Position numbers and translations under genes: made by a program. Below, piece by piece: positions 55,029 through 64,000 of a stretch of DNA of 64,000 bases. The number at the start of each line of letters is the position of its first letter. Position 1 is the first letter of the stretch. The notes beneath the pieces were generated by a model that saw only the letters and a program-made list of their open reading frames with translations, was not told the origin of the DNA and did not search any database. The DNA comes from Veillonella sp. KGMB01456 (GTDB lineage: Bacteria > Bacillota > Negativicutes > Veillonellales > Veillonellaceae): assembly GCF_023051165.1 (NCBI RefSeq), contig NZ_JALKIG010000004.1, forward strand, positions 1-64,000, written 5' to 3'.

Positions 55029-55850
55029 TTATTCTTCTTCCGGACCGTCAACGGCACAGATAATAAGGCCTTTTTCGTTAGCCAATTTAATAACTTCGGC
55101 CTGCTCTACAAAGATAGTGCGCTCCGCTTCCATAGCAAGAATTTTGCAATCACTATCCAGCATAGATTGAATCGTTGTAAGACCCACAGCGGGCACGTCA
55201 AAACGCACATCCTGTCGTGGTTTGGCTGTTTTAACCACAACCGCATTGCCACGCCCTAAAGCACCGCCGCGCTTAATGCATGCATCGGTCCCTTCAATCG
55301 CTTCAATGGCCATAACAGCCATATCTTTGACCACAACGGTTTGACCGATGTCGAGTCCGCCCATTTGTTTGGCCACATCAAAACCGAAGAGGATATCGGC
55401 CATTTGTTCTTTGGACGGTTTAGCCTTCGTCAAGACACCCGCCTTAGGCATAAGAGGTTTCATATAAACGGTTTGGTCCACCACCTGAATACCTTCTTTA
55501 GCCAGTTCCTCCACGATAGTCAGCATAATCGTGTCATCCTTGCGATTGCGAAGTTTAGTGAGTAACTTAATGGTCCGCAAATCAGGCATAACCAACCCTT
55601 TAAATAAAATCTCTTTGGTTACTTTGCCGAGCATGGTCACTTCCGTGATGCCTTCTTTATGAAGTGTTTTAAAAATTTTATCTATCTTTGCCACATTGAT
55701 TTCATAGAATGCATCAGCTTCCGCTTTTAGCTCAGGTTCCGTGTCGGGAATAACAGCAATAACGACTACTTCATAGCCTTCCGATTGCGCTGCTCGTAAA
55801 AATTCCACCGGCAATTTACCTACGCCGGCCAGTAATCCGACTTTTGCCAT
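55029..55850 (-). CDS. lpxI: UDP-2,3-diacylglucosamine pyrophosphatase LpxI
   Basis: LpxI (DUF1009) cleaves UDP-diacylglucosamine to lipid X, replacing LpxH. The 273-residue protein starts MAKVGLLAGVGKLPVEFL at 55850 behind GGAGG; the frame is open to 55925. Conserved parts are FKTLHKEGITEVTMLGKV, AVMAIEAIEGTDACIKRGG and FDVPAVGLTTIQSM. It begins a new transcription unit after a terminator. Confidence 0.94.
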   Translation of the reverse strand: MAKVGLLAGVGKLPVEFLRAAQSEGYEVVVIAVIPDTEPELKAEADAFYEINVAKIDKIFKTLHKEGITEVTMLGKVTKEILFKGLVMPDLRTIKLLTKLRNRKDDTIMLTIVEELAKEGIQVVDQTVYMKPLMPKAGVLTKAKPSKEQMADILFGFDVAKQMGGLDIGQTVVVKDMAVMAIEAIEGTDACIKRGGALGRGNAVVVKTAKPRQDVRFDVPAVGLTTIQSMLDSDCKILAMEAERTIFVEQAEVIKLANEKGLIICAVDGPEEE

Positions 55851-55893
55851 CGTTTCCTCCCAGTTCTTTGTATTTAAAGACATAATATATAAT

Positions 55894-55922
55894 ATTATAT
55901 CAAATTTTACCTCATTTTTGAA
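55894..55922 (-). promoter_or_regulatory. Promoter for lpxI and downstream LPS genes
   Basis: TGATATAAT on the minus strand (-10 at 55894-55899, extended TG) with TTCAAA (55917-55922) 17 bases upstream. It lies between the lpxA terminator and lpxI. Confidence 0.7.
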
Positions 55923-55926
55923 CAAA

Positions 55927-59313: not shown

Positions 59314-60345
59314 CTATTTCGCCGCCAATTCTTCTTTTAAGGCAGCCAGTTCTTTTTCTAAACGCTTAATTGTTTTGGCCATATCCGGCAAACGATTTTC
59401 ATAAGCAGCCAATTTAAGCCATTCCTTATGAGGTCGATGCGGATAGCCGGCATAGGTCCCATTGGCCGAAACATTACCGACAATGCCTGTCTTCCCTGCA
59501 AAGGTAACATTGTCACCGATGGTGATGTGACCGGTACAACCGGTCTGACCGGCAAAAATTACATGATTGCCGCATTTAGTACTGCCTGCAATCCCAACCT
59601 GCGCAATGAGGAAGCAATCTTCACCGATTTCAACATTGTGCCCTAAATGCACCAAATTGTCAATCTTAGTGCCTCTTCTTACCAAGGTGGAACCCATAGT
59701 TGCATTATCAATACAGGAACAAGAGCCTACTTCCACATCATCTTCAAGGATTACATTGCCAACTTGCGGGATATGCGTATGTTTCCCCGCTTCGGTAGCA
59801 AAACCGAAGCCTTCACCGCCAATAACGGCTTTAGCTCTAAGAATTACGCGTTTACCTAAAATACAATTTTCATGAACAATGGCACCGCTGTATAAAGTAG
59901 AGTCGTCGCCAATGCGTACATTATGACCTACGTAAACATAAGGATGTAATACTACATTGTCACCGATAACCGCATTATCATAAATAATGCAGTATGGTCC
60001 TACCGTAACATTCTTGCCTAATGTTACATTGTTGCCGATAATCGCTGTTTCATGAATACCGGTAGGAAATACTACCGGCGGATGGAAAATCTGTAAAATC
60101 TGTGCAAAAGCGGCCTTAGCATTATGAACTACAATTTGAGGAATGCTCACATCGGCCAACGGTGCTTCTACAATGACAGCGCCTGCTTTGCTTTGCCCTA
60201 CATGTTCACAATATTCGCCTATGGCAAATGAAATTGCCTGCGGTGCCGCTTGATCGAGACCACGGGTTTCCGTAATCTCAACGCTGCCGTCACCTACTAC
60301 TTTACCTTCTACACTCTTTGCCAGTTCCTCAACTGTATACTTCAC
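59314..60345 (-). CDS. lpxD: UDP-3-O-acylglucosamine N-acyltransferase
   Basis: LpxD adds the N-linked acyl chain. The 343-residue protein has an N-terminal uridine-binding domain (about 1-100) and a hexapeptide beta-helix with the catalytic His in LVHLGHNVEIGEDCFLIAQ and the lipid-binding AGSTKCGNHVIFAGQTG. A C-terminal helix (KTIKRLEKELAALKEEL) is a short coiled coil. Confidence 0.96.
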   Translation of the reverse strand: MKYTVEELAKSVEGKVVGDGSVEITETRGLDQAAPQAISFAIGEYCEHVGQSKAGAVIVEAPLADVSIPQIVVHNAKAAFAQILQIFHPPVVFPTGIHETAIIGNNVTLGKNVTVGPYCIIYDNAVIGDNVVLHPYVYVGHNVRIGDDSTLYSGAIVHENCILGKRVILRAKAVIGGEGFGFATEAGKHTHIPQVGNVILEDDVEVGSCSCIDNATMGSTLVRRGTKIDNLVHLGHNVEIGEDCFLIAQVGIAGSTKCGNHVIFAGQTGCTGHITIGDNVTFAGKTGIVGNVSANGTYAGYPHRPHKEWLKLAAYENRLPDMAKTIKRLEKELAALKEELAAK

Positions 60346-60382: not shown

Positions 60383-60904
60383 TTATTTGTTACTTTCAGT
60401 GCTGCCGGATGTTGCTGTGCTCTGTGCGTTAGCGTCACCACTCGCTGCCTGATTGGCATTGGCATCGCTTGCATTAGCCGCTTTACCCATTTTGTTCAAT
60501 ACTTCTTCAGTCAAATCAACGCCACCGCTGATTAAAGCATTCTTTTCAACTACGGCAGTAATATTTTTTTCTTTCGCAATAGCCTGTACATTCGTATCTA
60601 CAGCGTTGCGGAAATCATTAATCATAGCCTGCTGATAAGCCTGGAATTCCTGCTGAGCTTTCTGTTGATTCTGCATCATAGTGTTGGCATCTTGACCGGC
60701 ACTTTGATCCTGAGCTAAACGAGCATTAATTTCAGTAAATTTAGCCTGTAATTTATTATTCGTATCCTGACCTTTTTGGCTGTCAGTCATGATTTTTTGC
60801 ATATCTACATAACCAACCTGTTCAGTAGTACCGCAACCGGCAACTAAGCCTACGGATACCATCATAGTTAAACCGGCCAAAATACGTTTTACATTCTTAT
60901 TCAT
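60383..60904 (-). CDS. OmpH/Skp family lipoprotein
   Basis: A 173-residue Skp-like protein. The lipobox LVAGC at 20-24 predicts lipidation at Cys24, unlike soluble Skp. GYVDMQKIMTDSQKGQD opens the fold, a coiled coil covers about 50-115 and ITAVVEKNALISGGVDLTEE closes it. The tail is Ala/Asn/Ser-rich. Third of three tandem Skp-like genes. Confidence 0.85.
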   Translation of the reverse strand: MNKNVKRILAGLTMMVSVGLVAGCGTTEQVGYVDMQKIMTDSQKGQDTNNKLQAKFTEINARLAQDQSAGQDANTMMQNQQKAQQEFQAYQQAMINDFRNAVDTNVQAIAKEKNITAVVEKNALISGGVDLTEEVLNKMGKAANASDANANQAASGDANAQSTATSGSTESNK

Positions 60905-60919
60905 TGTAAAAAACTCCTT

Positions 60920-61903
60920 TTATTGAGCAACCGAATAGGATGCAATAATAGCATCGGTCACATCAGTTGCATTAACATTTGAAACTTCATCAATAACTAT
61001 TAAATCGAGGTTCTTTTCCTTTGCCACCACCATGGCGCGCATGCGTACATCTTCCAAAATGGCGTCATGAAGGGCTTCTACTTCACTTTGTTTTGCTTTC
61101 ATGCGTGAATCCCAGGCCGTATTCCACTCTACCGGATTTGGCAGATTATTGGTTGCCATAATAGATTCCGCTTTAGCTTTTACCATTATATCACGACGGG
61201 CGAGTAATTCTTTTTGAAGATTAGCCGCATAGTCATCCAGTTCTTTTTGACCGGACGCACGAATCGGTGCCAACTCGGCATCGACCTTCTGCTCTAAATC
61301 TTGCAAATTCCCCTGTACGGATTGACTGCGCGATGCCAAGAGTTCTTGTAACTCTTTCTCTTTGGCAGCCCGTTCAGCTTCAATAGCCGTTTTTTGTTCT
61401 TCCGTTACTGCTATAGGTGCCGTATTGGCACTTAATTCCAATTGCAAATTAACAATTCGTAAATCCGCTTCGGTCATTTCCGTTTTAACTTCACCGCGAT
61501 ACTTATTGATTAAAGCGATACGCTGTTTTTGATAAGCTACATTCAGTTCCTGTTCTTTAGCTTTTACCTTAGTAATTAATTCCGTATTCAGTAAATCGGT
61601 GATTTCCTTGTCGGAGCCTAAGGCCTGAAGTGCTAAAGACTGTTGCTGCGATTTTTGCGTTAAGCTTTGCTGCTCATTTTTATATTGAGCCTGCAAATCA
61701 TCTAATTCTTTTTTAGCTTGCGTATATTCATCATAGGATGGGTTAAATTTGATGACCTTTTCCATTTTAACAATGCCGATTTTCGGCATATTAGGAGTTG
61801 AAGTCGTTTTTTTATCATCCAAACGATTATGAATAAACAAGCCCGCGAGTAAGGCGGCAATTACAACGACAACAACAGAAATCCAACGATACTGCGGCTT
61901 CAT
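60920..61903 (-). CDS. Large OmpH/Skp-like coiled-coil protein
   Basis: A 327-residue protein with an N-terminal membrane anchor or uncleaved signal (about 8-26), KIGIVKMEKVIKFNPSYDEY as in Skp, and then an unusually long coiled-coil region (about 55-260) about twice the length of classical Skp. The end, VVAKEKNLDLIVIDEVSNV, returns to the Skp body. It is probably a periplasmic chaperone anchored to the inner membrane. Confidence 0.78.
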   Translation of the reverse strand: MKPQYRWISVVVVVIAALLAGLFIHNRLDDKKTTSTPNMPKIGIVKMEKVIKFNPSYDEYTQAKKELDDLQAQYKNEQQSLTQKSQQQSLALQALGSDKEITDLLNTELITKVKAKEQELNVAYQKQRIALINKYRGEVKTEMTEADLRIVNLQLELSANTAPIAVTEEQKTAIEAERAAKEKELQELLASRSQSVQGNLQDLEQKVDAELAPIRASGQKELDDYAANLQKELLARRDIMVKAKAESIMATNNLPNPVEWNTAWDSRMKAKQSEVEALHDAILEDVRMRAMVVAKEKNLDLIVIDEVSNVNATDVTDAIIASYSVAQ

Positions 61904-61946: not shown

Positions 61947-62456
61947 TTATTTCTGGCTGCTTGAATCGGTAGCATCAGAGTTACCGCTCAATTTACGCTG
62001 TACCTGGTCGGTAATATCTACACCGCCGTATAAAACAGTACGTTTATCCATAACAATGGATAAACCTTTAGCATCGGCAACAGCTTTGGACGCATCACTT
62101 ACCTGACTCTGAATTTTCTTCTGGATTTCCATCATTTTATCCTGAACTTTGCCTTGGTATTCAGAAGCAAGTGCTGCTTTTTGGTTATCGTCCATATTAG
62201 CGGATTTAGTATTAAATTCATCGCTTAACTGTTTCTTATAATCATCCAATTCTTTATTGGCTTCAATGACTGCCGGTGAAGCGGCATTCAATACTTTAGT
62301 CGTATCGATAACGCCAATGTTGCTGTCCGCATCGGATGCAATGGTTGGCGTAGCCATTTGTGTGTACGCGATGGCGCCGATACCTAAGAGGAATATAACG
62401 GCAACAAATAAGGATACAAACTTCTTGTTCTTTTGGTTATTAATTAACCGCATCAT
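61947..62456 (-). CDS. OmpH/Skp family periplasmic chaperone
   Basis: A 169-residue Skp-like protein with a hydrophobic N-terminal segment (about 13-31), then NIGVIDTTKVLNAASPAVIE, a coiled coil (about 65-125) and GLSIVMDKRTVLYGGVDITD. Skp trimers hold unfolded outer-membrane proteins for BamA. First of three tandem paralogues after the bamA region. Confidence 0.87.
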   Translation of the reverse strand: MMRLINNQKNKKFVSLFVAVIFLLGIGAIAYTQMATPTIASDADSNIGVIDTTKVLNAASPAVIEANKELDDYKKQLSDEFNTKSANMDDNQKAALASEYQGKVQDKMMEIQKKIQSQVSDASKAVADAKGLSIVMDKRTVLYGGVDITDQVQRKLSGNSDATDSSSQK

Positions 62457-62538: not shown

Positions 62539-63813
62539 TTAAATATAGCCGATCAGGCGTAACCAATTATCGTCATCATTGACCACGTATTCCAAGGTCA
62601 AATAATTATTCAAATCATAGGCTAAACCGAACTCATTACGCTTGATTTCAAAATCTCGCTGAGCTCTCACATGCCAACGACTGCCGATATCCTGGCGGAG
62701 CCACACACGACTATATTTATCGGACAAGTTATATTGGTAAGCCAAGGTAGTATCTTGCGTAAAGTGATACGCATAGGACGGATAAAACGCCCATTTATAA
62801 TCATCGGGGAAGAAATTTGTTTCCAAATACCAATCTCCCTTGCCTTGCTTAATGCCGGTAAATAACTTAATACCTACATTGTGATCCGTTTCCGTCCCCA
62901 TATCCAAGTATCCTTCAGCACGTACAATATAGCGCGATGAATCGACTTGAATCTTGAGGAGTAAATCAGTCCCCAACTGCAACGACGGCTTCATGGAAAT
63001 ACCGAAACGCTGACTGGCCTTGCTATTGTCGAGGCCTTGTTGGATAACTCCCAGCAAATCGCTTTCATGACGAGCAATGAATGATACCGGCACGCCTTCT
63101 AAGCCGACTAAATACTCATCATAATAGCGTTTAGTCGCATAGAAAACCGTACTTGGCAATGTGTTTGAAGCAATTTCCGTACTGCTGTGACGGACCACCG
63201 CCCCTTGGGGAATTAAATAAACTTTAACCTTCGTCTTGGCGCCCGGTATGATTTCAACTTGCGGAATAAATTCCGGTAACGCCCCTTCCAATTCATTGCG
63301 AACCAGCTGACTGGTGACCGCCGTGGCCCAATCTAATGAGTCGAGCGGCGCCCCCAAAAGGATTTGTTCAATCCGCGGCTCCACAAAGGAAATATCGCGA
63401 GCTACCCACTCTTGAGCAAGCGGGGTTAAATTACCGTAATCCACCGTAACAGCTACGGCTTGAATGGTCTGCCCATACGGTCTGAGGCGCACGTCAAGTT
63501 GACTGTTCACCCCCGGTGTAATCGTCAAGGACTCCACCGTATAACCGTATAAAATTCGATCGATAATATCGGTTGTTACTTTCTGATATGTCGCTTGCCC
63601 GGCTGCCAATGCTTCCGTATCGGTCCCTACATACAACTTATCGGCCGCTGTTTGCACGGCGGCGGTCATACGTTTAGCCAAAACGGCCGGCAACGGTTGC
63701 CGACTACCGGAAAGACTCACCGTTACCGACTCAATGGGCTCAGCCTGAGCAACTGTCGTCACCGACGCCATCATACAGAGAGCGGCGGTGACGCGTAAGC
63801 CCCATTGTTTCAT
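62539..63813 (-). CDS. Putative outer-membrane beta-barrel protein next to bamA
   Basis: No family was recognised. The 424-residue protein has a clear signal peptide (about 1-24, ending AQA). A mixed region (about 25-240) has IESVTVSLSGSRQPLPAVLA and three beta-alpha blocks that may be POTRA-like. The C-terminal 170 residues alternate polar and aromatic residues with Gly/Asp turns (YIVRAEGYLDMGTETDHNVG, TLAYQYNLSDKYSRVWLRQD), as in small barrels. It starts two bases after the bamA stop, suggesting a partner in outer-membrane assembly. Confidence 0.7.
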   Translation of the reverse strand: MKQWGLRVTAALCMMASVTTVAQAEPIESVTVSLSGSRQPLPAVLAKRMTAAVQTAADKLYVGTDTEALAAGQATYQKVTTDIIDRILYGYTVESLTITPGVNSQLDVRLRPYGQTIQAVAVTVDYGNLTPLAQEWVARDISFVEPRIEQILLGAPLDSLDWATAVTSQLVRNELEGALPEFIPQVEIIPGAKTKVKVYLIPQGAVVRHSSTEIASNTLPSTVFYATKRYYDEYLVGLEGVPVSFIARHESDLLGVIQQGLDNSKASQRFGISMKPSLQLGTDLLLKIQVDSSRYIVRAEGYLDMGTETDHNVGIKLFTGIKQGKGDWYLETNFFPDDYKWAFYPSYAYHFTQDTTLAYQYNLSDKYSRVWLRQDIGSRWHVRAQRDFEIKRNEFGLAYDLNNYLTLEYVVNDDDNWLRLIGYI

Positions 63814-63815
63814 AA

Positions 63816-64000
63816 TTAGAACTGTCCACCAAAGCTGAAGTGGAATTTGTTGTCATCTTTGCTTACACCATAGTCAAGACGGATAGGTCCGATTGGTGTG
63901 GAAATACGAACACCGGCACCGACGGAGATATTGAAGGATTTATCATCATCGTACCAAGTTACGTGCGGTGCATCCCATGCATCACCCATATCGGTGAAGA
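63816..64000 (-). CDS. bamA: Outer membrane assembly protein BamA, C-terminal part
   Basis: Only the last 61 codons are in the window; the gene continues to the right. The translated end, FTDMGDAWDAPHV then ISVGAGVRISTPIGPIRLDY and FHFSFGGQF, matches Omp85 barrels: the conserved G.R..TPIGPIR.DYG strand and a terminal Phe. Location ahead of skp-lpxD is the classical bamA place. Confidence 0.88.
   Translation of the reverse strand, partial: FTDMGDAWDAPHVTWYDDDKSFNISVGAGVRISTPIGPIRLDYGVSKDDNKFHFSFGGQF

Follow-up and report, generated by a model that had tools for sequence, protein, structure and literature searches.

Which role does the protein encoded directly downstream of bamA in Veillonella sp. 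KGMB01456 play, and is it a partner of the Bam machinery, one of its substrates, or a part of something else? The gene lies close to the end of the 64,000-nucleotide stretch of DNA that was analysed (contig NZ_JALKIG010000004.1, G000:C4:1-64000), which we refer to as the window. The original prediction, made from the sequence alone, described an unrecognised, beta-barrel-like protein and suggested a lineage-specific Bam partner or a substrate.

A conserved gene next to bamA

The open reading frame of the protein studied, named QRY here, was located correctly, with an ATG at 63813, the stop codon at 62539-62541, and the start codon 2 nt past the bamA stop (63816). Of the 100 relatives searched, 79 carry QRY, as do 176 of the 214 Negativicutes genomes with a completeness of at least 95%, and the gene is not interrupted by stop codons. 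Since 40 diverse members also align over the full length with 13 invariant columns, it is no chance open reading frame. Veillonella ratti, V. seminalis, and V. intestinalis are close named relatives, at 92%, 89%, and 81% identity, respectively, which places the window in their clade, and divergent orthologues outside the Negativicutes occur in 8 of the 299 genomes sampled at phylum level, with E values from 1e-31 to 1e-77. Neither the protein nor its family profile matches any entry in Pfam, NCBIfam, or the PDB sequences. The linkage to bamA also holds among homologues, which are adjacent to bamA in all loci with sufficient contig sequence, the order being bamA, QRY, ompH1 both within and outside the Negativicutes. 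The features of the region are collected in Table 1.

Table 1. Features of the bamA region and of QRY; positions refer to the window unless a contig is given.
Feature	Position	Strand	Basis
Sigma-70-family factor, 210 aa (just beyond the window)	G000:C4:67099-67731	minus	PF04542 1.7e-19, PF04545 2e-9
x66k, 208 aa, single-pass protein (just beyond the window)	G000:C4:66075-66701	minus	alignment, hydropathy
bamA 3' end (706 aa; remainder beyond the window on G000:C4)	63816..64000	minus	PF01103 8.8e-52, three POTRA stretches, TIGR03303
QRY CDS, 424 aa	62539..63813	minus	ORF and conservation
QRY signal peptide, residues 1-24 (cleavage between AQA and EP)	63742..63813	minus	sequence inspection; n/h/c regions aligned in family
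QRY POTRA-type domain 1, approx. residues 25-115, beta-alpha-alpha-beta-beta	63469..63741	minus	AF2 secondary structure, hhalign repeat, POTRA matches
QRY POTRA-type domain 2, approx. residues 116-205, best modelled, pLDDT 60-87	63199..63468	minus	AF2, hhalign repeat, POTRA matches
QRY POTRA-type domain 3, approx. residues 206-291	62941..63198	minus	AF2, hhalign repeat, POTRA matches
QRY C-terminal region, residues 292-424, ~10 amphipathic beta strands, putative small outer-membrane barrel	62542..62940	minus	period-2 hydropathy test
ompH1 (Skp-like), next downstream of QRY	61947..62456	minus	order conserved in all loci
ompH2 (long, membrane-anchored Skp-like)	60920..61903	minus	gene order
ompH3 (Skp-like, lipobox VAGC)	60383..60904	minus	gene order, lipobox
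lpxD, next in conserved cluster	59314..60345	minus	gene order

The three Skp-like proteins encoded downstream of QRY seem to be of three kinds, one exported or anchored, one long and membrane-anchored, and one a lipoprotein. The ompH2 product has 327 residues, about twice the usual Skp-like length, and an N-terminal transmembrane anchor. The ompH3 product is a predicted lipoprotein with an LVAGC lipobox; 58 of 70 homologues retain this trait, and several others do so with an SFGC variant, which contrasts with the report that V. parvula has no identified outer-membrane lipoproteins (PMC10665443). An LpxI-type UDP-diacylglucosamine hydrolase apparently lies between lpxA and lpxB (55029-55925, minus strand), as judged by sequence only.

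Predicted domain architecture of QRY

The predicted signal peptide reads MKQWGLRVTAALCMMASVTTVAQA and is followed by EP, with an AxA-type cleavage site after residue 24 and n-, h-, and c-regions that align across the family, and is of the standard kind. A lipobox is not conserved, a loose match being present in 4 of 55 homologues.

What had been described as a beta-alpha N-terminal part resolves into three POTRA-type units by AF2, hhalign, Foldseek, and VIA-align. The AF2 model, built from four input sequences, folds into three consecutive beta-alpha-alpha-beta-beta units over the mature residues 1-267 with moderate confidence and a whole-model pTM of 0.44, and comparing the family profile with itself by hhalign reveals three internal repeats (R1/R2 E value 1e-10, R2/R3 6e-8, R1/R3 3.5e-6). 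The Foldseek matches in the PDB are the POTRA domains of BamA, TamA, cyanobacterial Omp85, and Toc75, with the best match being BamA (E value 1.7e-6, probability 1.00). VIA-align returns the POTRAs of the same four proteins with Z scores up to 7.8, where, for example, one single-domain fit to BamA (PDB ID 4k3c) superposes 73 residues at 2.4 A. As these Z scores stay below 8, the assignment rests on the unanimous hits, the Foldseek E values, and the internal repeats. The whole-chain TM-scores are low (0.14-0.22), as would be expected of a chain with differently oriented domains and no model for its C-terminal part. Pfam yields no POTRA sequence match in QRY or its homologues, the assignment coming from the predicted fold, according to which the N-terminal part of QRY is composed of three tandem POTRA-type domains.

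The alternating C-terminal strands of the original prediction stand up to a test, as the family-mean hydropathy of residues 289-424 shows a period-2 alternation of 1.19 versus 0.77 +/- 0.10 in shuffles (p = 0.0002), and the polar face of the strands carries the near-invariant residues D304, R383, E394, E408, and R419. The beta-barrel-like character is putative, with AF2 pLDDT values of about 25 in the full-length run and 39 for the region alone, and the beta-meander output was discounted. The C-terminal ~133 residues probably form a small outer-membrane barrel of about 10 strands, as their alternation pattern suggests. Neither result that the original prediction named as contradicting it, a soluble fold or homologues unlinked to bamA, was obtained, while the outer-membrane location of the C-terminal part is putative. 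The last residue is Ile rather than Phe, as noted before; the family mostly ends on Leu and sometimes on Phe or Ile. Coupling analysis with mfDCA and pseudolikelihood on 139 homologues (Neff ~111) yields a signal dominated by conserved columns and phylogeny.

The 16-stranded Omp85 barrel (Pfam ID PF01103) has no match in QRY or 39 homologues, the hhalign comparison of the QRY and BamA profiles gives no match, and Pfam finds no TonB-dependent receptor barrel, plug, or STN domain in QRY or its homologues. The C-terminal strands show a weak profile match to the TamB C-terminus (hhalign E value 1e-4, probability 57%).

Co-inheritance with a sigma factor and a single-pass membrane protein

Two further genes, encoding a sigma factor and the protein named x66k, sit between tamB and bamA in every QRY locus where the contig allows. 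The sigma factor has regions 2 and 4 and a weak match to region 1.2; region 3 gives no match, and no equivalog model scores above its cut-off. With the cut-off used, x66k has a single hydrophobic segment in 44 of 54 members, which is followed by a median of 108 residues with 9% Pro. Its N-terminal stretch is conserved in the alignment, and so is the C-terminal motif LSPxEMQxLVRxAGKSLRGQ. From its sequence, x66k is predicted to have the topology of a membrane anti-sigma factor, with a cytoplasmic N-terminal domain, one transmembrane segment, a periplasmic C-terminus, and the gene beside that of a sigma factor, its orientation in the membrane being deduced. Among 39 members, neither Pfam nor PDB searches gave a credible match to the known anti-sigma domains (RseA, FecR, RsgI, zinc ASD). 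Weak Pfam and PDB matches to DotF, VirB10, TraB, and SpoIIIAH track the transmembrane and Pro-rich composition and were set aside.

Among 69 intact tamB-bamA loci, 50 carry all three genes, 19 carry none, and not a single locus is mixed. Where the trio is present, its genes flank bamA on both sides. In the loci without the trio, tamB leads directly into bamA and bamA directly into ompH1; bamA, ompH, and tamB are kept. The BamA tree shows at least 10 independent changes (starred branches), with 10 of 10 concordant pairs (p = 0.002). Genome-wide, the presence of QRY and x66k agrees in nearly all 214 genomes, the disagreements being weak low-complexity hits (E value 3e-5 or worse) and three genomes, one with a contig ending beside bamA (G126) and two that are fragmented (G179 and G203). 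Outside the class, the order tamB-sigma-x66k-bamA-QRY-ompH is found in 6 of 6 loci with long enough contigs; in one of these genomes (G376), 3.2 kb separates the sigma factor gene from x66k. Open reading frames resembling an HD-type phosphohydrolase and a methyltransferase (L213, 11543-13188, minus strand) are found in this interval. The V. parvula cluster, given as vpar_0526 (TamB), vpar_0527 (BamA), and vpar_0528 to vpar_0530 (Skp) in PMC5491611, belongs to the group without the trio.

Distance-matrix correlations are no higher for QRY and x66k than for QRY and bamA. The tie of QRY to the sigma factor and x66k rather than to bamA follows from bamA staying wherever the trio is missing, and it is well supported that the three genes form a unit.

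A promoter-like element upstream of x66k

Just 5' of the x66k ribosome-binding site we find a bipartite element composed of GTTC or GACC, 18 nt, and [CA][CG]GAYTATA or a close variant, which resembles a promoter of a non-sigma-A type. In the genome of the window it takes the form GTTC-N18-ACGAATATA (C4:66723-66753, minus strand). In leave-one-out scoring, 53% of the regions upstream of x66k reach a weight matrix score of at least 8, compared with 1% of shuffles and 0 of 20 regions upstream of bamA in genomes without the trio, these counts being inflated by related species. The sites were aligned on the -10 part, which leaves the -35 part and the spacing as the unselected portion of the element. 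When up to 3 mismatches are allowed, the 12 genomes searched, which represent 9 families, each contain exactly one copy of the longer form CCANAATCTGGNCTCTTCNCANGAYTATA, always beside x66k, while its reversed control has no match in the same genomes. Of the five out-of-class loci scored, three lack the element (L210, L212, and L216, with scores below 0). Searching seven Veillonella-like genomes for further targets with one mismatch gave counts barely above the reversed control, and the sites inspected were mostly intragenic.

We read the element as a candidate dedicated promoter/operator of the x66k-bamA-QRY operon, which would be used by the co-inherited sigma factor.

The spacer between the sigma factor gene and x66k mostly measures 95-185 nt in Negativicutes. 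In the genome of the window it extends to 397 nt (L034:8703-9099, equal to G000:C4:66702-67098), compared to about 150 nt elsewhere, and holds a terminator-like hairpin, GGTTGTAATCTGTTGCAGC...GGGTTGCAACCTTTTTT, that matches no Rfam family; the Rfam scan of the spacer returned no RNA surviving scrutiny. In Sporomusa-like families (L046, L048, L049, L050, L054, L056, L057, and L133) the stretch from the -35-like to the -10-like box contains the near-palindrome CCAGA-A-TCTGG, which has the look of an additional binding site for a repressor or some other regulator.

A possible circuit and its alternatives

For QRY, we give an even chance to a role as the outer-membrane arm, either sensor or effector, of a sigma/anti-sigma circuit in the bam-skp-lpx operon of diderm Firmicutes. 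QRY would be exported and would place three POTRA domains in the periplasm, anchored by the small C-terminal beta domain, probably a barrel of about 10 strands that closes on itself and is inserted by the neighbouring BamA. As the proposed anti-sigma factor, x66k would span the inner membrane once, holding the sigma factor with its conserved, helical cytoplasmic domain of about 55 residues, and its Pro-rich linker would be long enough to span the periplasm and present the conserved C-terminal hook of about 20 residues to the QRY POTRAs, or to QRY and BamA together. POTRA domains are established docking modules. A failure of outer-membrane assembly would alter the hook contact and free the sigma factor, which would then transcribe x66k-bamA-QRY-ompH-lpxD from the promoter-like element. 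An RseP-type protease (COG0750) is a member of the diderm-Firmicute cluster (PMC5007114), so parts for proteolytic signalling could be present. The direction of signalling is one that we infer, and the circuit might have QRY as an output instead of a sensor.

The strongest alternative makes QRY an assembly helper and circuit output only. As an Omp85-like mini-protein it would aid BamA in folding outer-membrane proteins, while the sigma factor and x66k would regulate the operon in response to another signal. The constant position directly downstream of bamA, the POTRA domains typical of assembly machines, and the lack of BamB-E in diderm Firmicutes, as given in PMC5007114, are in line with such an accessory factor. 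However, at least 10 losses removed QRY along with the sigma factor and x66k and left bamA, ompH, and tamB in place, a pattern that would be strange for a simple assembly factor, and we regard this role as possible though unlikely. The same observation qualifies the earlier idea of a lineage-specific Bam partner: the adjacency to bamA stands, and POTRA domains with amphipathic strands suit an outer-membrane protein capable of contacting the Bam machinery, yet the idea is incomplete, since the presence of QRY follows the sigma factor and x66k and not bamA, and it is not lineage-specific, as other classes carry orthologues.

Rather improbable is a function with TamB or BamA in the transport of lipids or proteins between the membranes, in which the C-terminal strands of QRY would pair with either protein; the TamB C-terminus is thought to pair likewise. 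The shared operon with tamB and the weak match to the TamB C-terminus agree with this, but the match lies within the range of generic outer-membrane hairpins, TamB is kept where QRY is lost, and the coupling to a sigma factor is left unexplained. The joint loss of the trio might also reflect replacement of the whole operon by horizontal transfer, with no functional coupling, given that tamB, bamA, and ompH are adjacent and one recombination could swap the block. A single spreading replacement would group the loci without the trio on the BamA tree, whereas they are scattered among close relatives that carry it (G196 by G070, G040 by G037) with at least 10 changes, making this very unlikely. Least probable of all is a client or porin-like outer-membrane protein that is simply located beside bamA, for which the signal peptide and amphipathic strands would speak, but which disagrees with the strict operon position across classes, the POTRA domains, and the co-inheritance with two regulatory-looking genes, the last of which also makes the proposed substrate unlikely as the main role of QRY.

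Returning to QRY as the outer-membrane arm of a circuit, the data suggest that Firmicutes with an outer membrane have a control circuit for building it that has gone undescribed. A wider version, about which we are somewhat doubtful, is an ancestral diderm-Firmicute envelope-stress system, in which a POTRA outer-membrane protein would read BamA-dependent assembly and signal through a periplasm-spanning anti-sigma factor to a sigma factor with bam-skp-lpx as its main or only target, forming a closed single-operon feedback loop that was repeatedly lost, including in V. parvula.

How outer-membrane assembly is surveyed in bacteria lacking BamB-E and the known RseA/RseB/DegS sensors is an open question, and the diderm Firmicutes hold a key place in discussions of how outer membranes arose and were lost. 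If the circuit is true, the bam operon would supply a ready-made testable answer through its sigma factor, its periplasm-spanning protein, and its POTRA protein, a set kept beyond the Negativicutes.

Comparison with known systems

The outer-membrane cluster of diderm Firmicutes (TamB/BamA/Skp), as presented in the available text of PMC5007114 and PMC5491611, is the same as the one found here, and the cluster accounts there do not discuss the sigma factor, x66k, and QRY. Our literature search, which covered few subscription journals, found no description of the trio. The trio may have been overlooked because V. parvula is without it, and work on this reference and model species alone could not find it.

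Like the Omp85 proteins (BamA, TamA, TpsB/FhaC, and Toc75), QRY has tandem POTRAs followed by a C-terminal beta domain, and it is encoded beside bamA. In contrast to them, it has no match to the Omp85 barrel, its C-terminal ~133 residues are far too short for 16 strands, and its POTRAs are not recognised by Pfam at the sequence level. As no Omp85 barrel was found, QRY is not an Omp85 member despite its Omp85-like POTRAs.

The E. coli sigma-E/RseA system likewise links bamA, skp, and lpxD to a sigma factor and to an inner-membrane protein with a single membrane pass, with sigma-E transcribing yaeT (bamA), lpxA, lpxB, and lpxD (PMC2215328). Here, however, the sigma factor has a region 1.2 match, no RseA-family anti-sigma factor was found, the trio genes are part of the operon under control, a POTRA protein of the outer-membrane type is always included, and the element is apparently single-copy.

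Cell-surface signalling (FecA-FecR-FecI, IutA-IutY; PMC5411451) also combines an outer-membrane protein, a single-pass protein facing the periplasm, and a sigma factor. The trio differs in having no TonB-dependent receptor, plug, STN, or FecR domain by Pfam, and its POTRAs would stand in for the signalling domain, an arrangement of a POTRA sensor that has a substantial chance of being new.
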